DNA of 35,116 bases, taken from a candidate division GN15 bacterium (GTDB taxonomy: Bacteria; Zixibacteria; MSB-5A5; GN15; FEB-12). Location of the stretch: contig WJMS01000348.1 of assembly GCA_014727815.1 (NCBI GenBank), forward strand, positions 1 to 35,116. Direction: 5' to 3'. Below are positions 7,820-35,116 of this stretch, in pieces. Every line of letters starts with the position of its first letter. Positions within the stretch are counted from its first letter, which is position 1. The notes below the pieces were generated by a model, which was not told where the DNA came from, ran no database searches, and worked only from the letters and a program-made list of their open reading frames with translations. Made by a program: the position numbers and the translations under genes.

Positions 7820-8665
7820 TTATAGTTTTTGTTTGAGAGATTCAGTGAGGGATGGGTTCTTGGATAGAGCCCATCGGTACAAGTCTCTTTTGTCGTCTGC
7901 AAATTTCTCCATTAGCTCTATAGGGAGCCTGGGATTCCTGAGAAGGGTTTCCATCACCGAAATATTCTTCGATGTGGCCAGAACTTCCATCACATGCTCA
8001 GGTAGATTCGGGTTAGCCGCCAAACCCGCTCGAACAAGATAGTCGATATCGTTTGCCAAATTCTCCATCAGGTTTTGAGGAAGGTCAGGGTGTCTGGCAA
8101 TTGAAGCTCTGACCATAAAGGCATCGTCTTTGGCCAAGACGGGAATCAGGTCATTGGGGAGATTTTTATTGTTGCAAACGGCTTGCCTGACAGTATCCCA
8201 TTCATCTGTGGCCAAAATTCGGATAAAGCGTTCCTCAGTGGCTTTATTTCTGGCTAGATTTCTGCGAACAAAAGAGGCTTTATCCTTGTAGAGAAGTTCC
8301 ATGGTCTGTTCAGAAACAGAGGGGTGTGCGGCTATTTCTCCCCGAACATTTGCATCCGGGTCGTTAGCCAGGGCCTCCATTAGCTCGATGGAGAGGTTGG
8401 GATTCCGAGCTACCTTTTTCCTAACTGTCCATTCACTATCATGAGCCAGATTTCTCATGAACCTTTCGGGGAGGTTATTCTTCTGGGCGATAGTTTCTCG
8501 AATCTTGATGAATTTGAGAAGTTTGTGGAGTGAATCCCAAACAATAGGTTCCAGATTCTCCTTTTGTTGGAGGATATCAATGAGTTGAGAATAGGTTTCC
8601 CCCAGGGTAGGGGAGTGTTGGACGTCTCTAATGAGTTCAAGGATTTTATTTGTAGAGGTGTTCAT
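7820..8665 (-). CDS. LRV-family repeat protein (long)
   Basis: 281 residues: family head (TNKILELIRDVQHSP..., LEPIVWDSLHKLL), then about eight ~24-residue repeats of the form 'VRxxxARNPNLPxxLMExLAxD'. This fits leucine-rich-repeat-variant (LRV, Pfam PF01816-like) helices, an alpha-solenoid likely to bind a protein partner. The N-terminal Fe-S cysteines of the classical Azotobacter LRV protein are absent. Third member of a three-gene cluster with the next two genes. Confidence 0.85.
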   Translation of the reverse strand: MNTSTNKILELIRDVQHSPTLGETYSQLIDILQQKENLEPIVWDSLHKLLKFIKIRETIAQKNNLPERFMRNLAHDSEWTVRKKVARNPNLSIELMEALANDPDANVRGEIAAHPSVSEQTMELLYKDKASFVRRNLARNKATEERFIRILATDEWDTVRQAVCNNKNLPNDLIPVLAKDDAFMVRASIARHPDLPQNLMENLANDIDYLVRAGLAANPNLPEHVMEVLATSKNISVMETLLRNPRLPIELMEKFADDKRDLYRWALSKNPSLTESLKQKL

Positions 8666-8740
8666 AGGAAAGCGCTCCGAACTAAGGATGATTGGTCATG
8701 AGATAGTTTTATTCGTTGAAGTGTTCCCGGTAAGAGCCCA

Positions 8741-9247
8741 TCACGATATCAGTTCGAGCATATTCCTTACAATGGGGCTCTCATCCTTGCTAAAGGTTTT
8801 CCTTAAAGCATCGGGAATGTCTTTGCGCATAGCTAGCCATCCCCGAACCCAGAGGTTTTTATCTTTAGCCAAGATAGGAATCAAAGATTCGGGGAGATTT
8901 GGGTGTTTTGCTATCCCTTCCCTAACCAAATCGGCTCTGTCCTTGGACAGGAATTCTATCAAGGATTTGGGGAGATTTGGATTCTGAGCTAATAGTTCTC
9001 TGACCTCCCAAGAGGAATCGTTGGCCAAATCCTCCATCATTGTTTCAGGAAGGTCTTTCCTACAGGCTAGGTTACAACGAAGATAAGAGGAGGGGTGTTT
9101 GACCAATTCCTTTAGGGAATCCCAAACAATCTCCTCAAGAGAAACCTTTTTATCAAGGATGAGGATTAGTTCATGGTCAGATTCCATTTCAGGAGTGTGT
9201 TTCACCTCCCTAATAAGTTCAAGGATTTCATTCGTAGAATAGGTCAT
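8741..9247 (-). CDS. LRV-family repeat protein
   Basis: 168 residues with the family head (TNEILELIREVKHTPE..., LEEIVWDSLKEL) and about four LRV-type repeats ('AKHPNLPESLIPILAKDKNLWVR'). The start overlaps the stop of the upstream paralogue by ATGA. Shares more of the head (ESDHELI) with that paralogue, which suggests recent tandem duplication. Confidence 0.85.
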   Translation of the reverse strand: MTYSTNEILELIREVKHTPEMESDHELILILDKKVSLEEIVWDSLKELVKHPSSYLRCNLACRKDLPETMMEDLANDSSWEVRELLAQNPNLPKSLIEFLSKDRADLVREGIAKHPNLPESLIPILAKDKNLWVRGWLAMRKDIPDALRKTFSKDESPIVRNMLELIS

Positions 9248-9846
9248 TTGAGGTGTTCCGGGCAGTTGGGGTTTTCGGCTAGGGCTTCCCTAACGGAAGG
9301 GTGGAAAGCCAAAGCCATCCTTTCCATCATATCTTCGGGGAGTGCGGGGTTTTTTGCGAGTAGGTCTCTGACAAATAGGGTTTGGTCTTCGGCCAAAAGC
9401 TCCATCAACCCTCTGGGTATACTTGTGTTAGTGGCTAATAGGCCCCGAACCCAATCCACATCTTGAGAGAAGACTCTCATCAATCTCTGCGGTATGCTGG
9501 GGTTTGAGGCCAAAGCTCCCCGGACAAAATATTGACGGTCCCTTGAGAGAGTATCCATCAACTCTTCGGGGAGATTGGGGTTAACAGCCAAAGTAACTCT
9601 AATTCCCCACTTCTCTTCGGCTAGAAGTTTCATTGTTTCAACAGGAAGATCCTTTCTTGTTGAAAGGGCTTCCTTAAGATAGGTACTTTCATGGTGAGCA
9701 AGTTCTTTTAAGGAATCCCAAACAATAGGCTCCAGAGAAGTTTCCTCCTTTTTCAGAAGCCTAATCAGTTCATGGTCAAATTGAACCCACTGAGTGAATT
9801 TAATGTCCCTAATAAGTTCAAGAATTCTATTCGTATGAGTTTTCAT
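9244..9846 (-). CDS. LRV-family repeat protein
   Basis: 200 residues: head TNRILELIRDIKFT...LEPIVWDSLKEL, then about five LRV-type repeats such as 'AVNPNLPEELMDTLSRDRQYFVR'. First gene of the LRV triplet. Its start lies inside the 3' end of the preceding gene (20-nt overlap). Scaffold or binding role inferred from the solenoid fold. Confidence 0.85.
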   Translation of the reverse strand: MKTHTNRILELIRDIKFTQWVQFDHELIRLLKKEETSLEPIVWDSLKELAHHESTYLKEALSTRKDLPVETMKLLAEEKWGIRVTLAVNPNLPEELMDTLSRDRQYFVRGALASNPSIPQRLMRVFSQDVDWVRGLLATNTSIPRGLMELLAEDQTLFVRDLLAKNPALPEDMMERMALAFHPSVREALAENPNCPEHLK

Positions 9847-24604: not shown

Positions 24605-24653
24605 TGTTTTCCTCTGTGGTGCATGACCCTCCATTAGGGTCATTGTTGTAAAA

Positions 24654-24717
24654 TCCTCGGAAGGGAATCGAACCCTCATCCCCTATTGGGGAACCCTAGC
24701 CTGAAAAGGGCCGAGGA
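24654..24717 (-). ncRNA. tRNA-like element 1 (D-arm-less, Leu-CAG-like loop)
   Basis: 64 nt. Acceptor TCCTCGG/CCGAGGA (7 bp) and T-arm GAGGG-TTCGATT-CCCTT are canonical. Between them, CCCTT-TTCAGGC-TAGGG resembles the tRNA-Leu(CAG) anticodon arm and CCCC-AATA-GGGG could be its long variable arm; no D-arm lies between acceptor and anticodon arm. Alternatively the first hairpin is a D-arm (GG in loop) and there is no anticodon. No CCA encoded. It lies between two genes, starting just after a stop codon. Confidence 0.6.
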
Positions 24718-24723
24718 TATCTG

Positions 24724-25199: not shown

Positions 25200-25985
25200 C
25201 TACAGGAAGGAAGCGGAGAGGATACCATCTCCACAGTGAGGACAGAGGTGGTCGTCAGTCACTTCCACGTTCTCATCACCGTCATCGTCGACGGTGACGA
25301 CCTCCCTCATCTTGATTTCATCTCCCTTCATTCGACCATAGCCCCGTTGATTGGGATACCAGTCGTAACCTCCGTTGTCGGAGTACCAACCGGCGTCGCA
25401 AAGCTCACAAGAGAGATAGACGTTAGCCCACCGAATGATATCGGTAAGCTCGTCGCAGTCGAGGAGGAAGATTCGGGGATGGGTATAACCTCCCCGAACA
25501 TCGCAACCTCCGTGAATGCTGAGGCAGATGTAATGGTCCCTGGACCCTTCGGGGTCAGCCCAGACAAAGAACTGAATCGTCTGGTCCAGAGAGTTTTCGG
25601 AGTTGTAGGAGTTGATGATATCCGGCTCCCAACCGGGTTCGAACGACGACAGGTCGCCGTGAGCCTCCTGAAGGAACTCCAGATAGGCCCGCTGAGCGTA
25701 GAGCCCGGCGACGTCCCTCTCCTCACAGAAGTTCTGGAACTTCTGGTCTTCCTCTTTGCAATACTCCACCCTCTCCAGAAGAAAGGCATAGAGGGAGATG
25801 GTGACGAGCCCATCTTCCAGGGTCGCCGGAGGGTTATCCTCCTCCCAAGCCTCCTCGCCGTATTCGTCGGTACGGCGGTGGTCTTCGAAGTGGTACCCAT
25901 AGGCCCCACCGGAATCGAGGATGGAAGTGGGAACGCCTTCGGTGAGCATGGAACGGAGGATGGTTTCAGTTTGTTTGCGAGTCAT
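25200..25985 (-). CDS. Phage-type protein (LDSGGAYGYH...IHGGCDVRGGYT) with C-terminal zinc knuckles
   Basis: 261 residues. Segments ILDSGGAYGYHFEDHRR (~22-38), NSYNSENSLDQTIQF (~124-138) and SIHGGCDVRGGYTHPRIF (~155-172) occur together in a widespread uncharacterised phage family. CELC (~193-196) and CPHCGDG (~248-254) form a likely zinc site. Function unknown. Starts MTRKQTETI, part of the Thr-rich N-terminus group. Confidence 0.75.
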   Translation of the reverse strand: MTRKQTETILRSMLTEGVPTSILDSGGAYGYHFEDHRRTDEYGEEAWEEDNPPATLEDGLVTISLYAFLLERVEYCKEEDQKFQNFCEERDVAGLYAQRAYLEFLQEAHGDLSSFEPGWEPDIINSYNSENSLDQTIQFFVWADPEGSRDHYICLSIHGGCDVRGGYTHPRIFLLDCDELTDIIRWANVYLSCELCDAGWYSDNGGYDWYPNQRGYGRMKGDEIKMREVVTVDDDGDENVEVTDDHLCPHCGDGILSASFL

Positions 25986-26062: not shown

Positions 26063-26067
26063 GAAAT

Positions 26068-26141
26068 GTCCCTATTTGGGAATCGAACCCAAATCCCCAT
26101 CATCAATATTATCAGTGGGGGAACTCACCAAAGTTAAGGAC
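26068..26141 (-). ncRNA. tRNA-like element 2
   Basis: 74 nt. Acceptor GTCCTTA/TAGGGAC (one wobble) and T-arm TTGGG-TTCGATT-CCCAA. Small first arm AACT-TTGGTG-AGTT (GG in loop, D-arm-like). Second arm CCCCA / TGGGG encloses 16 nt beginning CTGATAA, the usual Ile(GAT) anticodon loop, plus a 9-nt insertion. No CCA encoded. As drawn it should not decode normally. Confidence 0.55.
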
Positions 26142-26147
26142 TAACAC

Positions 26148-28181: not shown

Positions 28182-28230
28182 GAATAGTCACCCTAACCCC
28201 ATTGGTTAAGGCGAATTCCGATGCTGCGGA
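28182..28230 (-). promoter_or_regulatory. Leader hairpin related to 26018-26062
   Basis: TAACCAATGGGGTTAGGGTGACT again, here with an outer GCATCGGA/TCCGATGC stem (left arm near 28168). Same position relative to a tRNA-like element. Confidence 0.5.
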
Positions 28231-28234
28231 AAAT

Positions 28235-28279
28235 ACCCTGATTCCGGAATCGAACCGGAATTCCTACCAAGTTCAGGGT
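28235..28279 (-). ncRNA. tRNA-like element 3 (minimal)
   Basis: 45 nt. Acceptor ACCCTGA/TCAGGGT (7 bp, perfect) and T-arm TTCCGG-TTCGATT-CCGGAA, joined by only 12 nt (ACTTGGTAGGAA). This is nearly the acceptor/T minihelix that RNase P and RNase Z recognise. No anticodon arm can fit. Just 5' is TGAGGTT-GTAA-AACCTCA (28281-28298), a GNRA-capped hairpin containing the stop codon of the 28296 gene. Confidence 0.6.
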
Positions 28280-28295
28280 TTGAGGTTTTACAACC

Positions 28296-28697
28296 TCATA
28301 TGTACGGATTGGGAATCCAACGGATGGTGGGGGTGCCAATGTCCCCCAGCCCCGTCAAGAGGAGGTGGAGGGCTCCCCGAAGGACCCCCCAATATTTGGG
28401 CTCCGGGCCCCAGAGGATAACCAACTCCCCGAACCTGTCCAGCCCTACTGTGTAGGTCTGGTAAGAAGGGGCCTCCCCTGGCCCCTCTTTATAGTCCATC
28501 CCCACTGTCCACAGCCCTTCCGGGTCCAGGGAGGGGAGTTGGTTACGGACCTTGAAGGGCAATTTCCCTCCCTCAGAGAAGCTGAGCATGAAAACATGCC
28601 CATATTTCTCGTCTTTCACTCTCACGACCCCCTCGTCAGTGGTGCTGAGGGTGAGATAGGGGAGGGCTTGTTTACCTTTCTGAATGGTGTTGGTCAT
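28296..28697 (-). CDS. Hypothetical beta-rich protein
   Basis: 133 residues: MTNTIQKGKQALPYLTLSTTDEGVVRVKDEKYGHVFMLSFSEGGK..., several predicted strands and a glycine-rich C-terminal half. Thr/Asn start similar to neighbours. Its TGA is part of a hairpin. Function unknown. Confidence 0.65.
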   Translation of the reverse strand: MTNTIQKGKQALPYLTLSTTDEGVVRVKDEKYGHVFMLSFSEGGKLPFKVRNQLPSLDPEGLWTVGMDYKEGPGEAPSYQTYTVGLDRFGELVILWGPEPKYWGVLRGALHLLLTGLGDIGTPTIRWIPNPYI

Positions 28698-28734
28698 GGG
28701 GTGACTCCTGTAGGTCTGAGGGTTGGATGAAATT

Positions 28735-28782
28735 TTGGGAAAATCAATATCTCAATTGATATCCCCAAAGCTTCCCCCAACC
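28735..28782 (-). repeat. Diverged copy of the GGTTGGG hairpin
   Basis: TTGGGAAAATC...TTCCCCCAACC with an ATCAAT/ATTGAT inner stem: the same design as the hairpins at 29396, 30477, 31010 and 31947, but the most decayed. Confidence 0.45.
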
Positions 28783-28787
28783 GGGGT

Positions 28788-28819
28788 CCCCGACCAGACC
28801 GGGAGTAGTCTGGCCGGGG
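28788..28819 (-). other. Hairpin after the 28831-29289 gene
   Basis: CCCCGACCAGAC / GTCTGGCCGGGG, 12 bp; the single non-Watson-Crick position is a G-U pair only on the minus strand. Confidence 0.5.
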
Positions 28820-28830
28820 GTATGAGGCTT

Positions 28831-29289
28831 TCACCCCGTGGCCTTCTTACGGCGACCCTGGCCCCTGTCGCCGGAGTCAAGGTGCCGGTCGATGAGCCCC
28901 TTGACCCGGTGGGCGGCGGTGGGCCAGGACTTGCCCCACGCCTTCCTCCCCTGCTTACCGCCCTCCCCGGAGATGGGGGCGGCTCCGGCGACCCAACCGT
29001 CGAAGGCGAGCGTCACCGGAGCCACGGTGATGGTGTAACCCCGATAGGTGTTGCTCATCCGGAACTTAGCCGGGTCAAGGGGCTCCCCAGCCTTGAGCCA
29101 CTTCACCAGACAATCCCTGGTGACGGGGCTCGTCCCCTCGACGGTCCAGACGGCGCCCCTCAGTCGGGTCAGGGAGCCGAAGGGAGTGTGCCACTCCCCG
29201 GCCTCCCTGATGGTGGCGGCGACCTCCTCCCCGAACATGGCGGTCAGGGTGGCGTTGGTGACGGTGATGTTCTGAGTGGTCTTCGTCAT
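28831..29289 (-). CDS. Hypothetical protein, basic C-terminus
   Basis: 152 residues: Thr/Asn start (MTKTTQNITVTNATL), a helix (AMFGEEVAATIREAGEW), a beta-rich core (RLRGAVWTVEG..., YRGYTITVAPVTLAFDG) and a Lys/Arg/Gly tail (DRGQGRRKKATG). AGGAGG precedes the ATG. Possibly nucleic-acid binding; unidentified. Confidence 0.65.
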   Translation of the reverse strand: MTKTTQNITVTNATLTAMFGEEVAATIREAGEWHTPFGSLTRLRGAVWTVEGTSPVTRDCLVKWLKAGEPLDPAKFRMSNTYRGYTITVAPVTLAFDGWVAGAAPISGEGGKQGRKAWGKSWPTAAHRVKGLIDRHLDSGDRGQGRRKKATG

Positions 29290-29395
29290 TGGATTGCCCT
29301 CCTAAGGACAATGTGGCCCCTTTCCCCTGCTTTGCAGCTAGGGCCGAGTTTGTTAGTATCCTGAACAACTCCAGTAGTTATCCAGGGTTTGTTGT

Positions 29396-29457
29396 GGTTG
29401 GGGAAAATTCTGGGAATACCAGTCTTGAAACTGATTTCCCCAGAGCACCCCCCAACC
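29396..29457 (-). repeat. GGTTGGG hairpin element, copy 1
   Basis: GGTTGGGG...CCCCAACC ends with inner CTGGGAATACCAGT / ACTGATTTCCCCAG arms. 3' of the pentapeptide gene on the minus strand. In this gap the classical pseudoknot is replaced by GGCCC..CTGCtttGCAG..GGGCC near 29313-29345. Confidence 0.6.
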
Positions 29458-29479
29458 GGGGGAGGTGCGGGAGAAGGGC

Positions 29480-30409
29480 CTAGCTGGCGAGGGGGACGGC
29501 GCCGTCCCCGTAGTAGACCTCACCGGAGGGGAGGATGCAGCCCCCGGAGAGGTCGGCGGCGCTCTTCAGGATGGGGGCCGGGATGCGCTCGGCCCACCAC
29601 CCCACCCCCGGGTGGTGGACCTCGTTACCGAGGACGTAAGCGTCGGTCAGGTCGGCGCCGGTCATTACCGTGGCGTCGAGGTTGGCCCCGTTGAGGTTGG
29701 CGCCCCGGAGGTCGGCCCCGGACAGGTTGGCGCCGGTCAGGTCGGCCCCGGACAGGTCGGCGCAGCGGAGGTCGGCCCCGGACAGGTTGGCGCCGGACAG
29801 GTCAGCGCAGCGGAGGTCGGCCCTCCGGAGGTCGGCGCCGACGAAGAGGGCGCCCCGGCAGTCGGACTGCACGAAACCGCACCCCCTCAGGTAGGCGCCC
29901 CGGAGGTCGGCCCTCCGGAGGTCGGCGCGGTTGCGGTGCCGGGGCTCGAAAAGACGAGCCTCTTCGGCGCGGCGCTCGTCCTCCTCCACCTGGGCCAGCC
30001 ACTCGGCCTCCCAGTAGGCGTCCATCTCCTCCTGATACCGCTCCTCCTCCTCAGCGTAGGAGAGGCACTCGCCCTCCTCGTGGAGGTACGCCATGTAACC
30101 CTCCTCGCAGAGGGCGGCGCCGTGGCGGCGCCGGGCCGTGTTGACCCGCTTGGAGAGCACCCAGCCCCCCTTCCAGTGGCCCGGCTCCTTCCAGGGCTTG
30201 TAACCCCGGATGGCGGTGGTGATGCCCACCGCCTCGCCGTCCACGACCACCCGGCCCCCGTTCTCCCACTCGCCGTTAGCCTGCTCCCGGAAGAGGTGCC
30301 ACCGGCGCCGGTCCCCGACCCAGTAAGTCAGGTCCGAGAGCGCCTTGGCGAGGCGCCGGGAGTTGGCGTTGACGGGGGAGGTGATGGTGGTGGTGTTGGT
30401 CTGGGTCAT
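29480..30409 (-). CDS. Pentapeptide-repeat protein
   Basis: 309 residues. Thr/Asn start (MTQTNTTTITSPVNAN), a basic/aromatic N-terminal domain (to ~150), then about 20 tandem pentapeptides (A[DN]LxG/R; ~160-260) forming a right-handed beta helix, then a ~50-residue C-terminal part (HHPGVGWWAERIPAPILK...). Repeat proteins of this kind can mimic DNA (for example Qnr/MfpA protecting gyrase) or act as scaffolds; the target is unknown. GC-rich with a pseudoknot leader. Confidence 0.85.
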   Translation of the reverse strand: MTQTNTTTITSPVNANSRRLAKALSDLTYWVGDRRRWHLFREQANGEWENGGRVVVDGEAVGITTAIRGYKPWKEPGHWKGGWVLSKRVNTARRRHGAALCEEGYMAYLHEEGECLSYAEEEERYQEEMDAYWEAEWLAQVEEDERRAEEARLFEPRHRNRADLRRADLRGAYLRGCGFVQSDCRGALFVGADLRRADLRCADLSGANLSGADLRCADLSGADLTGANLSGADLRGANLNGANLDATVMTGADLTDAYVLGNEVHHPGVGWWAERIPAPILKSAADLSGGCILPSGEVYYGDGAVPLAS

Positions 30410-30422
30410 GGGTTTTCTCCAA

Positions 30423-30475
30423 GATAGGGCCGGTTTACTGAAATCCGTTGTCGCTGGCCCTATTAGCGATAACGG
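30423..30475 (-). ncRNA. Leader pseudoknot, copy 1
   Basis: Plus-strand notation: ATAGGGCC, linker, then stem CCGTTGTCGCT / AGCGATAACGG with loop GGCCCTATT, whose GGCCCTAT is complementary to the first element. On the minus transcript this is an H-type pseudoknot ending next to the GGAG of the pentapeptide gene. One stem position is C-A on the minus strand. Confidence 0.6.
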
Positions 30476-30476
30476 G

Positions 30477-30538
30477 GGTTGGGAAAGATTCTGAGAATAC
30501 CAGTCTTGAAACTGATACTCTCAGAGCATCCCCCAACC
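30477..30538 (-). repeat. GGTTGGG hairpin element, copy 2
   Basis: GGTTGGG...CCCAACC with inner CTGAGAATACCAGT / ACTGATACTCTCAG. Nearly identical to copy 3; sits between the stop of the upstream gene and the pseudoknot. Confidence 0.65.
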
Positions 30539-30553
30539 GGGGGGAGCGGCTGG

Positions 30554-30943
30554 TTAGAAGTCCAGGGGATGAATCCCCCACACCTCCGGGGGCGGCCCCT
30601 CCCCGTCCCCGAAGGGGTCGAGGTCCTCCCGGGCCGCCTCCAAGGCGAGGGCGGCGGCCCGGCCCTCATCCGGGGCGGTCACCCTGTAGAAGTGCTCCGT
30701 TTGGGGCTCCCCGTCCTCTCGGAAGGTGACCACCTGCACCTGAAAGGGCCTCCCCTCCCCCTTGACGAGGAGGAGATCCCCCAACTCCAGGGGCATGTCG
30801 GCCAGCGCCTGACGGCGAGCCTCCCGCTCACCCTCCAACGGGAAGCTTTCCACCGTCCGGGGGGAGGGGGCCGCCTCCACGGGGACGGCACAGAGGGGGA
30901 GGATGGCGAGGGCGAGCAGGCGGAGGGTGTTGGGGCGGGTCAT
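30554..30943 (-). CDS. Predicted exported protein
   Basis: 129 residues from MTRPNTLRLLALAILPLCAVPVEA at 30943 (GGAG 8 nt upstream; the longer frame reads through the leader elements). Basic start, hydrophobic core and AxA-type site (VEA/AP) give a Sec signal peptide of ~24 residues. The mature part (ESFPLEGEREARRQALADMPLELGDLLLVKGEGRPFQVQVVTFREDG) looks like a small alpha+beta domain. Periplasmic or secreted; function unknown. Confidence 0.7.
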   Translation of the reverse strand: MTRPNTLRLLALAILPLCAVPVEAAPSPRTVESFPLEGEREARRQALADMPLELGDLLLVKGEGRPFQVQVVTFREDGEPQTEHFYRVTAPDEGRAAALALEAAREDLDPFGDGEGPPPEVWGIHPLDF

Positions 30944-30955
30944 GGTAGGACTCCA

Positions 30956-31009
30956 GATAGGGCCGGTTTTGTTAGAAACCATCAATGGTGGCCCTATTAC
31001 CACTGATGG
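30956..31009 (-). ncRNA. Leader pseudoknot, copy 2
   Basis: ATAGGGCC pairs with loop GGCCCTAT of the stem CCATCAATGGT / ACCACTGATGG. The single imperfect pair is U-G only on the minus strand. Located immediately before the ribosome site of the exported-protein gene. Confidence 0.6.
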
Positions 31010-31071
31010 GGTTGGGAAAAATTCTGAGAATACCAGTCTTGAAACTGATACTCTCAGAGCATCCCCCAACC
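31010..31071 (-). repeat. GGTTGGG hairpin element, copy 3
   Basis: Same sequence as copy 2 with minor changes; directly adjacent to pseudoknot copy 2. Confidence 0.65.
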
Positions 31072-31095
31072 AGGGGAGATGCGGGAGTTATGGGA

Positions 31096-31878
31096 TTATT
31101 GAGCGGAGACGGCGACGGCGCCGTCCCCGACGGTGGCGAAGGCCAGCCCCCCCAGCCCCACCACGCCGGAGGTGGGTCCGGCGTGGATCTCCTCCACCTC
31201 GTGGGAGTAGAGGAGATCCCAGAAACCGTCCCCGAAGTCGAGGGTTACCACCTCGGAGGGGTAGCCCCCGCCGACGCGGACGCCGACCCCCCCTCCGCTG
31301 GCCCACCCTTCCTCGGGGACGGGGGCCCCGGCGGGGACGATGTACACGGTATCCGAGGTGGGGGCCCCGACGAGGTCAACCCCCCCTCCGAACTGGAGGC
31401 GCCAACCCCGCCCCGGGGCCAAACGGGCCCCCATCAGGAGGGCCCGTTTGAGGAGGGTCTTCCCGCCGCCCTCCTCGCAGAACCGGAGCCTCACGGCTCC
31501 GGTTCGGTGCAGGGCGACCCATGCGGGGTGGGTCACGCTTTGGGCGCTGAAGGCGCCCCAGAGGCTCCCCACCGCCTCCTCCAACGCGCAGTCGTAATCC
31601 CGCTCCGGGGTGTGGAAGCTCTCCCACACCAGGGCCCCCTCCCCGTTCCGGAGGGACCACCCGAAACCTCCGCGAACCCCGACCTCGGGGTTCGCGGGGG
31701 CCTGCTGCCAGGACAGGACGGCCCCCTCGGAGTAGGTTACCGGCCCCTCCCGCCGGGCGGCCCGGAGCGCGGCGCCCGGCTCCCGCAGGAGGCGGGCGCC
31801 GTCGAGCCCGGAAATGACGGGCTTGGTGTTGGCGTTGGTGTTGGTGGCGGTGGTGTTGTTGTTGGTCGGGGTGGTCAT
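31096..31878 (-). CDS. Hypothetical Gly-rich protein with Thr/Asn N-terminus
   Basis: 260 residues from MTTPTNNNTTATNTNANTKP at 31878 (GGAG 8 nt upstream). After the low-complexity start come charged and glycine-rich segments (GVRGGFGWSLRNGEGALVWESFHTPERDYDCALEEAVGSLWGAF...), then a C-terminal part rich in Gly/Val (GGGVGVRVGGGYPSEVVTLDFGDGFWDLL). Likely a beta-structured domain. No family recognised. Very GC-rich. Confidence 0.65.
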   Translation of the reverse strand: MTTPTNNNTTATNTNANTKPVISGLDGARLLREPGAALRAARREGPVTYSEGAVLSWQQAPANPEVGVRGGFGWSLRNGEGALVWESFHTPERDYDCALEEAVGSLWGAFSAQSVTHPAWVALHRTGAVRLRFCEEGGGKTLLKRALLMGARLAPGRGWRLQFGGGVDLVGAPTSDTVYIVPAGAPVPEEGWASGGGVGVRVGGGYPSEVVTLDFGDGFWDLLYSHEVEEIHAGPTSGVVGLGGLAFATVGDGAVAVSAQ

Positions 31879-31891
31879 GGATTTTCTCCGA

Positions 31892-31946
31892 GATAGGGCC
31901 GTTGTCGTCATAACCCACCAGTAGTGGCCCTATTACCACTGATGGG
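31892..31946 (-). ncRNA. Leader pseudoknot, copy 3
   Basis: ATAGGGCC with loop GGCCCTAT; stem CCCACCAGTAGT / ACCACTGATGGG has two positions that pair only as G-U on the minus strand. Precedes the 31096-31878 gene. Confidence 0.6.
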
Positions 31947-32008
31947 GGTTGGGAAAAATTCTGAGGATTCCGGTAGGGATACCGAAACCCTCAGAGCATC
32001 CCCCAACC
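31947..32008 (-). repeat. GGTTGGG hairpin element, copy 4 (changed inner stem)
   Basis: Outer GGTTGGG/CCCAACC kept, but the inner stem is CTGAGG-TTCCGGTA / ATACCGAA-CCTCAG, unlike copies 2 and 3. Both arms changed together, so pairing is conserved while sequence is not. Confidence 0.65.
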
Positions 32009-32033
32009 GGGGGAGAGGGGCGGGAAGTGGGGC

Positions 32034-32195
32034 CTAGGCGGCGAGGGCGGCGAGGAGGTCGGCCCCCTCCCACCACTCGCGCCCCCCCCAGATGGCGTCG
32101 TTGAGGTCGGCGCTGGAGAGGTCGACCCCGGCGAGGTCGTCGCCGGAGAGGTCGGCGCCGACCAGGTCGGCCCAGCTAAAATCGAACTCACTCAT
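32034..32195 (-). CDS. Mini pentapeptide-repeat protein
   Basis: 53 residues from MSEFDFSWADLVGADLSGDD at 32195 (AAGGAGG 6 nt upstream). Five to six pentapeptides (ADLVG ADLSG DDLAG VDLSS ADLND), then a short Trp-rich tail (WGGREWWEGADLLAALAA). Too short for a stable beta helix alone; may pair with the large pentapeptide protein at 29480-30409. Confidence 0.75.
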   Translation of the reverse strand: MSEFDFSWADLVGADLSGDDLAGVDLSSADLNDAIWGGREWWEGADLLAALAA

Positions 32196-32214
32196 AATGC
32201 CCTCCTTTAGGGCG

Positions 32215-32265
32215 GTTAGGGTCGAGTCGTCATAACCCGATAATGTGGACCCTTTCACACTATCG
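32215..32265 (-). ncRNA. Leader pseudoknot, copy 4 (compensatory change)
   Basis: AGGGTC pairs with loop GACCCT, replacing GGGCC/GGCCC of the other copies; stem CGATAATGTG / CACACTATCG with one U-G on the minus strand. The matched change in both strands of the second helix is the strongest sign that the pseudoknot is real. Confidence 0.6.
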
Positions 32266-32277
32266 AGGGTTGGGAGC

Positions 32278-32331
32278 GGAAAGGACGGGAATCGAACCCG
32301 CAACCGGAAATCTTCTAACCCTCACCTATCC
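32278..32331 (-). ncRNA. tRNA-like element 4
   Basis: 54 nt. T-arm GCGGG-TTCGATT-CCCGT and acceptor GGATAGG/CCTTTCC (one T-T mismatch), joined by 23 nt with no clear cloverleaf arms. It takes the place of the GGTTGGG hairpin in this gap, just 5' of pseudoknot copy 4. Confidence 0.5.
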
Positions 32332-32513
32332 GGCCCCCAAGAGAGGGGCGGTCGCCATAGTCTCCCCCAATTCCAAACTAGAAGGGAAAGGGAGCTACAG
32401 TTAGGATAGGGTTAGACTAGAAGTCATTCCAGTCTCTGCTATTAACAGAGGTCGCGCACCATTGCGCAGCCCTTCCCTATTATCTCTCAAAGACAGTTAC
32501 TCTAACATAACTG
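32332..32513. other. Non-coding spacer, no gene seen
   Basis: About 180 nt without a plausible ORF. Short hairpins such as CTCTG ctattaa CAGAG and GCGCA..TGCGC occur near 32436-32470. Nothing else recognised. Confidence 0.4.
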
Positions 32514-32619
32514 CCGTTTGAGGATATTAGTGGACCTATCAGGGTTTAACGGACGCTGGGGGGAAACCTACGGAAACCCCATAATCCGCCCTGATAGGGC
32601 CGCTAAAGCCCTCAAACGG
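32514..32619 (-). ncRNA. 106-nt multi-part hairpin
   Basis: CCGTTTGAGG / CCTCAAACGG at the base, then ATTAGTGG / CCGCTAAAG, CCTATCAGGG / CCCTGATAGG, and an inner GGGG..CCCC stem. The arms are continuous with small internal loops. Downstream of the 32693-32974 gene. Could be a stable 3' end, a small RNA or a replication structure. Confidence 0.55.
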
Positions 32620-32621
32620 GC

Positions 32622-32661
32622 GGCCCCGGTGGTTCAGTCACTCCCACCACACACCGGGGCC
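32622..32661 (-). other. GC-rich 10-bp hairpin
   Basis: GGCCCCGGTG / CACCGGGGCC enclosing 20 nt, adjoining the 106-nt structure and close to the stop at 32693. Confidence 0.5.
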
Positions 32662-32692
32662 GGTGTGATGGTGATGGGGGCGGGCGCCGTTT

Positions 32693-32974
32693 CTAGCGCC
32701 GACGGCTCGCCTTGCGGCGCCGCGCCCGCATGGCGCGGGTCTGGAAAAGCTCCCTCTCCGTCGCCGCCGTGGCGATCACGCGCCCCCCCGACGAGACGAA
32801 GCGGACCCGCCGCTTCTCGCCCATCTTCTCCGAGAGGACCCTCCCGTCGTGGAGCGGGTATGTACGGAGCGTCTCCCACTTGACGCTGTCGGTGCCGTAC
32901 ATCTCCACAGCCCTGCTGGCGAACGGGTTGTTGTTGGCGGCGGGAGTGTTGTTGGTGGTGTTCTTGCGGGTCAT
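32693..32974 (-). CDS. Small Thr/Asn-start, Arg-rich protein
   Basis: 93 residues from MTRKNTTNNTPAANNNPFAS at 32974 (GGAG 8 nt upstream, after pseudoknot copy 5). The middle (YGTDSVKWETLRTYPLHDGRVLSEKMGEKRRVRFVSSGGRVIATA) is beta-rich; the C-terminus is strongly basic (RAMRARRRKASRRR), as in nucleic-acid binding tails. First gene from the right end. Confidence 0.7.
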   Translation of the reverse strand: MTRKNTTNNTPAANNNPFASRAVEMYGTDSVKWETLRTYPLHDGRVLSEKMGEKRRVRFVSSGGRVIATAATERELFQTRAMRARRRKASRRR

Positions 32975-32987
32975 GATGGATCTCCGA

Positions 32988-33043
32988 GATAGGGCCGATT
33001 CTGTGATATCCGCCAACGCTGGCCCTATTAGCGTCAACGGCGG
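32988..33043 (-). ncRNA. Leader pseudoknot, copy 5
   Basis: ATAGGGCC with loop GGCCCTAT; stem CCGCCAACGCT / AGCGTCAACGG closes completely only on the minus strand, using three G-U pairs. Precedes the 32693-32974 gene. Confidence 0.6.
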
Positions 33044-33121
33044 TTAAGGGCCCTAGTGGGCTTACCCAGGGAGGAGACTGCAGATGAAATCCCCTGAATA
33101 GGCCCACTGAGGCCCTTAACC
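33042..33121 (-). other. 80-nt hairpin upstream of pseudoknot copy 5
   Basis: GGTTAAGGGCC / GGCCCTTAACC and AGTGGGC / GCCCACT, loop rich in AGGAG-type sequence. It occupies the position of the GGTTGGG element but is unrelated inside. Confidence 0.5.
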
Positions 33122-33427
33122 TGTATTCCCGGTTTATTCCTATTCCGGGGAGGCTGGCGATACCGAGCTTTTCAACCATATCGGCATCTCTTAGGGGGCG
33201 CTCAATTGTCATCAAGGTGGGCTATCCGCTGGTGAGGCGGATTGGTGGGATATCTTGAATAGATACCCTTTCTGCCAGAAAGGGAGGTTAGCCCGTATCC
33301 GATGAATACGGGAGATGGTGGGTTTCAACTGTATCCCCGGTTCCGTAAGGAAACCGAGAATACAACTGAAATAGGCGGGATTGAGCATCCCCGAAGAGAT
33401 TCCGATACTGTGAAAGTCGGAATCAGT
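33122..33427. other. Hairpin-rich non-coding region
   Basis: No credible ORF. Stems: CCCTTTCTG/CAGAAAGGG (33266-33284), CCCGTAT/ATACGGG (33292-33312), TTTCAACTGTAT/ATACAACTGAAA (33323-33371; two G-U only on minus strand) with an inner CGGTT/AACCG, GATTCCGA/TCGGAATC (33398-33424). Confidence 0.5.
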
Positions 33428-33484
33428 GACCCGGTTAGGAATCGAACCTAACTAACCTCGCCCCCCTTTCAGGGGGCGCGGGTC
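33428..33484 (-). ncRNA. tRNA-like element 5 (Phe-GAA-like loop)
   Basis: 57 nt. Acceptor GACCCG/CGGGTC and T-arm TTAGG-TTCGATT-CCTAA. The single inner arm CGCCCCC / GGGGGCG caps a loop reading CTGAAAG, like the tRNA-Phe(GAA) loop, but with 6 or 8 unpaired nt rather than 7. No D-arm and no CCA. Confidence 0.55.
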
Positions 33485-34157
33485 TTTCTATCTGACCGGC
33501 CCTTTCCTACTATCCTTTGGGATACTAGGGAGTCCGGCGCGTCCTTTCATTCCGGCCCTTGCCCCGTTAGGGACAGTCCGGCGCGTCCGTACATAAATTT
33601 ATATCCCGCCCCCCATCATCTTTGGCAGAATCAGGGGGGCGGCGAGTTGTGTTTCTACCCTGCTAGGTAACTCAAACCCTAGCAGGGCGCCCGCTGCGTC
33701 CCTTTCCAGTCTGTAACCCAACAGACCGGGCCGGGCGGGCATTTCGTTGTTTTGCCAGTCTCTTACTTTGTCATGGCATCGAGCAAAATCAGGGGGCGGG
33801 GATTAACCCCTGTATTCAATGGGACTGGTCGCACCTCACGCGATGTGAGGGGGTTTGACCGACTGTCTCAAGGTAGGCACCTGCCATAAACCACCCACTA
33901 CTGGCCGGAATGACTGCCTTAACCCACCTCCTGCAGAAAGGAGGGTCCCCGCAGTATTCCTAAACCGGGGCGGTTCTCGACCGTAACGGTACCAATCACA
34001 CTCACACCACTACCGTTGCTAAAGCGGGTTTCGCCGGAGGCGACCATAGCCGTAGCGTTGGGGATGCTCGTGGACTTCCCTCGGTTCAGAGAACCATCGA
34101 ATACAGGGAGGTTAAGAACCACCCTGATTCTGCCCTTAGCTCGAAAGCTAAGAGAAA
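33485..34157. other. Hairpin array, no gene
   Basis: Stems at 33506-33529 (CCTAC.TATCC), 33606-33642 (CCGCCCCCC/GGGGGGCGG), 33658-33687 (CCCTGCTAGG/CCTAGCAGGG), 33709-33727 (GTCTGT/ACAGAC), 33834-33850 (CCTCAC/GTGAGG) and 33927-33944 (CCTCCT/AGGAGG). GCGCGTCC or CTGCGTCC recurs four times (33537, 33580, 33694, 34254). A minus-strand open frame over 33919-34191 starts inside tRNA-like element 6 and lacks a ribosome site. Confidence 0.5.
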
Positions 34158-34241
34158 GGGCAGAGTGGGAATCGAACCCACTATGGAGCACACTGGCCCC
34201 GTCCTGAATATCAGGAGCTTTTACACTCTTGATATCTGCCC
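34158..34241 (-). ncRNA. tRNA-like element 6 (with extra arm)
   Basis: 84 nt. Perfect acceptor GGGCAGA/TCTGCCC and T-arm GTGGG-TTCGATT-CCCAC. An inner extended arm TATCA..GAG / CTC..TGATA caps an 8-nt loop (TGTAAAAG, containing Tyr-like GTA), and a GGGGC-CAGTGT-GCTCC arm resembles a class II variable arm. No normal D-arm. This is the closest of the six to a full tRNA. Confidence 0.55.
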
Positions 34242-34704
34242 TGTGGTTTAATCTGCGTCCCTGGATTCACACTATCCGCCCCGAATGGGCAAACAGTGTG
34301 TCACTCTTTTGTGTGCTAAGGGATTAAGCAGACCATCCCAAAAGGTATCAGCTTTCGCTTTCCCTTTTGTTTTGTTCCCTTGCGGGCGTGCATGAGATCC
34401 ACGAGTCGCACTGGTCGCAATGGGTACGATTCGGTTGGGAGAGCACACCTCCGGCGGAATCGGGGTCGCGGTTGCAGAACCCATCCTATACGGGATAAGT
34501 GCAGTGAGAGCCGGTGCGCCCGCAACTGGCCTGTTAGACCAGGGCAACACTACCCCTTCACCGCTCGAATCCTAAAGCATGGGCCACCTCCCCCTATCAT
34601 TATAGGGGTCCAGATTTGGCTACTGGCTAACCCGGCTCCGCTCGCAACCTATCGTTGGCGAGCGATGGTCACTCCTAAGAGTAGACCGGCGGTCGTGGAT
34701 ACGG
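34242..34704. other. Non-coding region with weak plus-strand tRNA-like fragments
   Basis: No credible gene. On the plus strand, 34420-34484 has ATGGGT/ACCCAT ends and a D-arm-like GGTTGGGAGAGC, and 34526-34542 has CTGGC-CTGTTAG-ACCAG (Asn-GTT-like loop), but neither has a proper T-arm. A further stem GCTCGC/GCGAGC lies near 34640-34663. Confidence 0.35.
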
Positions 34705-34780
34705 GGGGGAGAGTCAAGGGCAAGCCCTATCGCCTCCCCCCTCCACTATATACACAACTGCGCCCCCCGGAAAATTAGGG
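34705..34780. repeat. 76-bp direct repeat, copy 1
   Basis: Begins gggggagagtcaaggg and ends aaaattaggg. Contains nested stems GGGGG/CCCCC and AGGGC-aa-GCCCT, followed by actatatacacaactg. Differs from copy 2 at a few positions after the C-run. Confidence 0.8.
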
Positions 34781-34850
34781 TTTGGACAGAGAAAGTTTGA
34801 AGTTTCTTTGTCCGGCCCGTCCTTTCCAGGGAAGCAAGCGCACAAGGGAA

Positions 34851-34926
34851 GGGGGAGAGTCAAGGGCAAGCCCTATCGCCTCCCCCCCGCACTATATACA
34901 CAACTGCGCCCCCCGGAAAATTAGGG
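34851..34926. repeat. 76-bp direct repeat, copy 2
   Basis: Same unit 146 bp to the right. The spacer between copies holds GGACA.AGAAA / TTTCT.TGTCC (34784-34813). The pair may mark an origin, packaging or recombination site. Confidence 0.8.
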
Positions 34927-34971
34927 GCGCGAGCAAGAAAATTTGAGAAAGTTTTCCCCACCTGCCCCACT

Positions 34972-35101
34972 ATTCGCACCAGAACTCCCACCTCTTATCC
35001 CATAATGACACCCTCCCCTATGTGGCCCGTTATGCACACTTTATGGTGTTCCTCCCCCCTCCCCGATTATCCGCACCAGAATTCGCAGAATAGAATTCGC
35101 A
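34972..35101. repeat. AT[TC]CGCACCAGAA repeats at the right edge
   Basis: ATTCGCACCAGAACTC (34972) recurs as ATCCGCACCAGAATTC (35069), and AGAATTCGCA occurs twice 14 bp apart (35078, 35092). Iteron-like, reminiscent in position of the repeats at the left edge, but of different sequence. Confidence 0.5.
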
Positions 35102-35116
35102 TCTTAGGCTCTATTC

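Follow-up and report, generated by a model that had tools for sequence, protein, structure and literature searches.

On the minus strand of a phage-like contig, five genes are each preceded by an RNA leader that appears to fold as an H-type pseudoknot adjoining the ribosome site. The window, i.e. the whole analysed stretch of 35,116 nucleotides from a candidate division GN15 bacterium (contig WJMS01000348.1), is unclassified DNA that we infer to be of phage nature, and the genes concerned start at 30409, 30943, 31878, 32195 and 32974. The five-copy element probably serves these neighbouring genes in common, switching translation on and off or insulating it, and is absent from the RNA family libraries searched. 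This type of pseudoknot is already known, and the function of the five-copy set is unproven.

The five leaders share a common architecture. Helix P1 comprises 10-12 bp and helix P2 8 bp, shortened to 6 bp in copy 4, and the loops are near-uniform in size, with 1-2 nt in L1, 0 in L2 and 13-14 nt in L3. In the RNA (minus strand), the hairpin loop reads AUAGGGCC, corresponding to GGCCCTAT on the plus strand, the form quoted in the original prediction, and the segment preceding the Shine-Dalgarno sequence (SD) reads GGCCCUAU. In all five copies the loop pairs 3′ of its hairpin across P1, and the loop lengths permit both helices. The gap between the end of P2 and the SD is 2-3 nt in four of the five copies and 12 nt in copy 4, where the SD sits in a small separate hairpin; the distance from SD to ATG is 6-7 nt across the leaders.

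All leaders are located on the minus strand. Copy 1 (30407..30481, gene 30409) forms P1 from 30475-30465 with 30455-30445 and P2 from 30463-30456 with 30431-30424, leaving L1 at 30464 and L3 at 30444-30432, and is followed by the SD GGAG and then the ATG. The corresponding helices are 31009-30999 with 30989-30979 and 30997-30990 with 30964-30957 in copy 2 (30941..31015, gene 30943), 31946-31935 with 31925-31914 and 31933-31926 with 31900-31893 in copy 3 (31876..31951, gene 31878), and 33040-33030 with 33020-33010 and 33028-33021 with 32996-32989 in copy 5 (32972..33046, gene 32974). The divergent copy 4 (32193..32272, gene 32195) has P1 at 32265-32256 with 32247-32238 and a P2 in which AGGGUC (32253-32248) pairs with GACCCU (32223-32218). 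The original prediction had described five hairpins before these starts, each with a loop complementary to the SD side, and all of them were recovered at their positions; that the complementary segment abuts the SD holds for four copies and fails for copy 4 with its shortened P2.

The fold is supported by covariation among the copies. Pairing holds in 95.7% of the 94 pair cells, and 11 cells carry double changes, a number reached in none of 500 shuffles, while pairing falls to 24-44% in slid registers used as control. P1 preserves its pairing and drifts in sequence (59% identity), as had been predicted for a stem that differs from copy to copy and stays paired, except for one unpaired position in copy 1. 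This A.C mismatch is one of eight imperfect P1 pairs; the other seven are G-U solely on the minus strand, in exact agreement with the earlier count. P2, in contrast, is 100% identical in the four canonical copies, in which 16/16 of its columns are invariant versus 8/22 for P1 (Fisher p=3e-5 by column and 0.003 by pair). In copy 4, P2 reads GGGUC/GACCC instead of GGGCC/GGCCC through a single compensatory C-G to U-A change, which confirms the predicted alteration on both strands.

The identity of P2 in four copies suggests sequence-specific recognition, and the combination of an invariant P2 with a P1 conserved for pairing alone is characteristic of a recognised core beside a support helix that is free to drift. 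The P2 identity could in part reflect recent duplication. The covariation within the five copies is clear and shows the fold; its strand, its position and a constraint on P2 sequence beyond pairing are shown as well. The predicted pseudoknot of H-type, made from the minus strand and adjoining the ribosome site, is thereby supported. All of this covariation derives from five paralogues, as the phage, viral, plasmid and genome collections searched yielded no relative.

A blind scan of the window for H-type pseudoknots followed by an SD and ATG returned these five, all on the minus strand. When helix length was the sole requirement (9 bp or more in P1, 8 bp in P2), six sites were obtained on the real strand, four of which are the present copies, compared with 24 sites in total over 200 shuffled strands. 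A looser scan (ATG or GTG, P2 of 6 bp) gives about 0.7 chance matches per shuffled strand, so that meaning attaches only to the five conserved copies, of which four have an 8-bp P2. One pseudoknot-like leader in the Erythrobacter phage OL955261 (L048:13343) was not counted, because sites of this kind turn up 19 times when the scanner is run on 295 kb of viral DNA from elsewhere.

No Rfam covariance model, including preQ1-I/II/III, SAM-II and SAM-V, matched at gathering score, in line with the earlier statement that the element belongs to no recognised class. Weak riboswitch matches over the leaders were also absent from Rfam, and weak matches to miRNAs and others were attributed to chance. A covariance model of the copies, proposed earlier for use on related genomes, matched this contig and no other among 133 genomes of the phylum; scans of the order and the class likewise gave no relative. 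Exact pseudoknot patterns hit 17 and 8 stretches in the viral contig collection, all unrelated once read, and none in the genome contig collection; a pattern for the upstream hairpin described below (module a) gave 0 matches in the viral contigs. Megablast of 22 kb against phages, tblastn with three of the block's proteins against phages, and protein scans of the viral and genome contig collections gave no match. In a blastn search of 28200-35116 against phages and plasmids, the matches listed all fall in pentapeptide stretches, and a search with gene 1 in 99 genomes found pentapeptide repeats only.

The genes behind the leaders, all on the minus strand, encode pentapeptide-repeat proteins of 309 aa (gene 1, 29480..30409) and 53 aa (gene 4, 32034..32195) and family-less proteins of 129 aa (gene 2, 30554..30943), 260 aa (gene 3, 31096..31878) and 93 aa (gene 5, 32693..32974). 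The N-terminus of the gene 2 product looks signal-peptide-like by eye. None of the five was recognised as coding for a ribosomal protein.

Every pseudoknot (5/5) begins 0-4 nt after another stable RNA structure, which the original prediction had overlooked. In three copies this is a covarying 62-nt hairpin, termed module a, with a layout of 10 bp, a 3x3 internal loop and 16 bp. It lies on the minus strand 1 nt before copy 1 (30477..30538, z=-6.7) and directly, with 0 nt, before copy 2 (31010..31071, z=-6.0) and copy 3 (31947..32008, z=-5.9, with compensatory changes). Another module a hairpin (29396..29457, minus strand, z=-4.5) precedes the leader of gene 29289, in which a degenerate sixth copy of the pseudoknot was detected by the covariance model (29320..29391, minus strand, E=0.0066, 15.9 bits). 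Here the P1 hairpin, L3 and GGCCCUAG are retained and the loop partner is lost; the loop reads ACTGG and P2 is therefore missing. The most divergent module a hairpin (28721..28782, minus strand, z=-2.7) stands before gene 28697 without a pseudoknot. Copy 5 follows, at 1 nt, an 80-nt hairpin with a sequence unlike module a (33042..33121, minus strand, z=-6.6). In copy 4, module a is replaced by a tRNA-like structure 4 nt upstream (32270..32340, minus strand), which carries the T-arm GCGGGTTCGATTCCCGT and has an irregular predicted closing helix. Six T-arm motifs were found on the coding strand. The irregular, covarying intercistronic hairpins of about two helical turns would be of the RNase III type. 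The recurrence of an upstream structure at this spacing points to a recurring cassette in which a processing structure is followed by the pseudoknot and then by the ribosome site, and opens a reading in terms of RNA processing or insulation.

The best reading of these data is a shared translational operator, with a 5′-end cap or insulator as close rival. We favour the operator tentatively, at somewhat less than an even chance: a factor would read the pseudoknot core and lower 30S access to the five genes. Each leader RNA would fold as an H-type pseudoknot that ends, in four of five copies, just before the SD. A trans-acting factor, most likely the element's own RNA-binding protein, would recognise the invariant L1/P2 core and lock the closed pseudoknot against the ribosome site, reducing 30S access for all five genes together; without the factor, the pseudoknot would open or be displaced. 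The factor, the sign of control and the co-regulation are what we infer from the arrangement. Against an operator, the SD itself lies outside the pseudoknot and, in copy 4, at a distance. In addition, nested folding of the five leaders gave no clear change in SD accessibility on pseudoknot formation (probability unpaired in copies 1-5 of 0.25, 0.21, 0.08, 0.51 and 0.24 when formed and 0.26, 0.23, 0.22, 0.51 and 0.32 when free), which also counts against it. The operator reading is further weakened because no relative was found in which core conservation between genomes could be tested.

The processing or insulation alternative is a serious possibility, although a doubtful one. The intergenic RNA would be cut at the upstream structure, putatively by RNase III in the irregular hairpins or, where the structure is tRNA-like, by RNase P. 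The mRNA of each gene would then begin with the pseudoknot, which would shield this 5′ end from decay and block pairing of upstream sequence with the ribosome site, with no trans-acting regulator. It accounts for the independent structures (three covarying two-segment hairpins, the unrelated 80-nt hairpin and the tRNA-like structure) abutting all five pseudoknots with no room for a promoter in between, and for the six T-arm motifs as recurring tRNA-like structures; it leaves the invariance of P2 beside the drift of P1 unexplained, and module a, which contains a U-run, may be a terminator instead. Rather unlikely is a combination of both, a multi-gene regulon on a phage-like element in which five mRNAs are first severed from one another at the hairpin or tRNA-like structure upstream and their common pseudoknot is read by one RNA-binding factor; a single repeated cassette would then serve both processing and control of translation. 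An improbable alternative treats P1 and P2 as alternative helices of a bistable switch, since nested folding favours the P2 hairpin in copies 1 and 5 and P1 in copies 2-4; however, those programs are unable to draw a pseudoknot, the loops accommodate both helices together in every copy, and the 10-12 bp of P1 form first in transcription. A new class of metabolite riboswitch with its ligand in the L1/P2/L3 core would suit the H-type fold, the invariant core and the ribosome-site position, but is decidedly improbable: the genes are neither metabolic nor transport genes, Rfam riboswitches do not match, and no copy occurs in the 132 other phylum genomes or in the exact-pattern scans. Most improbable is an inverted DNA operator formed by the ATAGGGCC/GGCCCTAT pair for a DNA-binding regulator, without RNA pairing. 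Its near-constant spacing of 24-25 bp in four copies fits, but P1 spans the repeat, covaries and contains pairs that are G-U in the minus-strand RNA alone, and the phase relative to SD and start codon is fixed.

Among known systems, preQ1 and SAM-II riboswitches also place an H-type pseudoknot next to the ribosome site. The present element differs from them in lacking an Rfam match, in leaving the SD outside the pseudoknot and in the non-metabolic nature of its genes. The start-associated sequences (SAS/ESAS) of Cluster K mycobacteriophages and Cluster EF Microbacterium phages are likewise repeated conserved elements at the ribosome sites of some non-structural genes, of unknown function and in part with inverted repeats directly upstream, as found here just upstream of several starts. 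The descriptions consulted report no pseudoknot for them, whereas in the present leaders the conserved portion forms its pairs across the loop of a hairpin. Identity with SAS was rejected, as its 13-bp consensus GGGATAGGAGCCC gives three matches with two mismatches, which is chance level, and none at these starts.

A precedent for the operator reading is gene 32 of T4, whose product gp32 represses its own translation by binding a leader pseudoknot (PMC535899, PMC3014915). The pseudoknot of T4, T2 and RB69 is an autogenous gp32 operator, with mRNA-specific translational repression as the expected behaviour, and shares with the present leaders the H-type fold 5′ of the SD in what is here presumably also phage DNA. 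In T4, a single gene encodes its own repressor, its pseudoknot lies well upstream, at 67 nt from the start codon, and a UUAAA-rich tract then covers the ribosome site; here five unrelated genes are involved, P2 nearly reaches the SD of four copies, no UUAAA/UAAA repeats cover the ribosome site, and no gene 32-type single-strand-binding repressor was found among the regulated genes. In E. coli, a leader pseudoknot serves as translational operator of rpsO (S15) (PMC3014915), where a ribosomal protein autogenously controls one gene only. A review of 2010 considered the T4-type gene 32 pseudoknot as possibly the sole viral pseudoknot that autoregulates translation (PMC3014915). If the operator reading is true, five genes sharing one covarying pseudoknot at their ribosome sites would mean that such operators are used as a regulon. 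The five natural variants are available for testing which parts matter, and the coupling of each pseudoknot to a hairpin or tRNA-like structure upstream makes it testable whether such operons are split into single-gene mRNAs.

On the minus strand, each leader consists of a hairpin stem (P1) with the loop A-AUAGGGCC, a linker of 13-14 nt, the segment GGCCCUAU pairing with the loop to form P2 and, 2-3 nt further on, the Shine-Dalgarno sequence. In the divergent copy 4, before the gene starting at 32195, the counterparts are the loop AA-AGGGUC and the partner GACCCU, with the Shine-Dalgarno sequence 12 nt beyond. A blind pseudoknot scanner recovered all five leaders in the window and a stricter scan four of them, with 0.12 sites per shuffled strand. 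In the five-row alignment, 95.7% of the cells were paired (86% in shuffles), double-change cells numbered 11 (4.4 in shuffles) and covariation reached 0.468 (0.243 in shuffles; 0/500), while sliding the partners by 1-3 columns reduced pairing to 24-44%. The pair counts were taken from a MAFFT alignment which puts one gap of copy 4 in the wrong place; they are conservative, because setting this gap by hand allows two more P1 pairs in that copy. The pseudoknot is well supported as a real RNA fold by five paralogous copies on one contig. A single pseudoknot-like leader of different sequence, directly before a Shine-Dalgarno sequence in Erythrobacter phage OL955261 (13330-13420), was rejected as a relative, as it falls within the scanner background.

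A stable fold precedes the pseudoknot in every copy at a distance of 0-4 nt. For copies 1-3 (genes at 30409, 30943 and 31878) this is a 62-nt hairpin of 10 bp, a 3x3 internal loop, 16 bp and a 4-nt loop. Its z-scores lie between -5.9 and -6.7, and it shows compensatory changes, for instance A-U pairs replaced by U-A and by G-C in the inner stem of the copy at 31947. The same family occurs before gene 29289, where the pseudoknot is degenerate, and before gene 28697, where it is absent. Copy 5 (gene at 32974) follows an unrelated 80-nt hairpin (z -6.6) and copy 4 a tRNA-like structure whose T-arm is perfect; between the latter and gene 5 lies a long hairpin (32514-32619, minus strand, z -4.7) containing GGCCCUAUC. 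The 62-nt hairpin begins 15-48 nt past the preceding stop codon and carries a short U-run, two copies scoring terminator-like. Since the space before the pseudoknot is too small for a promoter, we infer that the hairpin serves in processing or insulation and is not a full terminator.

The exact T-arm motif GGTTCGATTCC occurs six times in the window, always on the coding (minus) strand (24653-24718, 26065-26145, 28232-28290, 32270-32340, 33424-33490 and 34158-34241). With up to one mismatch, seven were found against 1.4 expected, a number reached in 0/100 shuffles. Five of the six structures are closed by an acceptor-like helix of 6-7 bp without normal D and anticodon arms, and at 28232-28290 just about 12 nt separate acceptor and T-arm. 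ARAGORN called a tRNA-Lys for one of the six, and Rfam scores stayed under gathering. The intergenic structures look like minimal RNase P substrates.

The window, at 35,116 bases, spans one entire contig of a draft genome of 3.7 Mb, and its minus strand carries nearly all accepted genes. Among the proteins tested, matches were to unknown phage families or to pentapeptide repeats, and the remainder had none; relatives of the one at 25200-25985 occur, at 31-35% identity, in phages of Erythrobacter, Gordonia and mycobacteria. The contig is probably phage-like, and was probably either placed in the bin of its host or assigned to a wrong bin. Across about 28.5-33 kb, the block that holds the five leaders, G+C content reaches 64-67%, up from 40-55%. 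Several proteins there (28296-32974) have Thr/Asn-rich starts (MTQTNTTT, MTTPTNNNTTATNTN, MTRKNTTNNT, MTKTTQN) encoded by ACC/AAC runs, which possibly keep the start region unstructured. In the lower-G+C part, a palindrome CCCCTACATC...GATGTAGGGG recurs at many gene boundaries (e.g. 4114, 4186, 11333, 12690, 14053, 19631, 20188 and 23936), in some cases immediately 5′ of a start codon. Three adjacent paralogous proteins (7820-9846) are built from short NPNLPEELMEVLAND-type repeats, and two 96-bp direct repeats, 90% identical, lie at the gene-poor contig end (34705-34946).

Regarding function, we tentatively consider as the best reading a translational operator common to the five genes, in which a sequence-reading factor would sit at the core of loop L1 and P2. 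Among the four canonical copies (1, 2, 3 and 5), 16/16 columns of P2 are invariant, compared with 8/22 of P1 and 4/14 of loop L3, counts that rest on paralogues from one contig and are no substitute for orthologues of other genomes. P1 is constrained by pairing alone and P2 by pairing and sequence; recent duplication by itself would spare P1 to the same degree as P2. In the nearest rival, a possible but less probable one, the pseudoknot would cap the cut mRNA as part of a processing and insulation cassette. A recognised core is preferred over a purely mechanical cap mainly because P2 is invariant while P1 keeps only its pairing. Operator and cassette are not told apart by folding of the start-codon region, since predicted Shine-Dalgarno accessibility is nearly unchanged with the pseudoknot formed, and the two are compatible and can both hold.

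Imperfect P1 cells read as minus-strand RNA are G-U in seven of eight cases and A.C in one, and the 62-nt hairpin has G-U cells in eight column pairs and A.C in none; therefore both elements act as coding-strand RNA, and these G-U pairs make a DNA operator unlikely. A metabolite riboswitch is likewise improbable given the identities of the five genes.

Rfam holds no family matching the leaders, and every database search for relatives was negative, so that the element is so far known from one contig only. The closest functional parallel is T4 gene 32 (PMC535899, PMC3014915) and the closest genomic parallel SAS/ESAS (PMC3203893, PMC7302621); for each, tests of the leaders found defining features to be lacking. 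The pseudoknot is hence new as a motif, belongs to a structural kind already known, and has a putative function.
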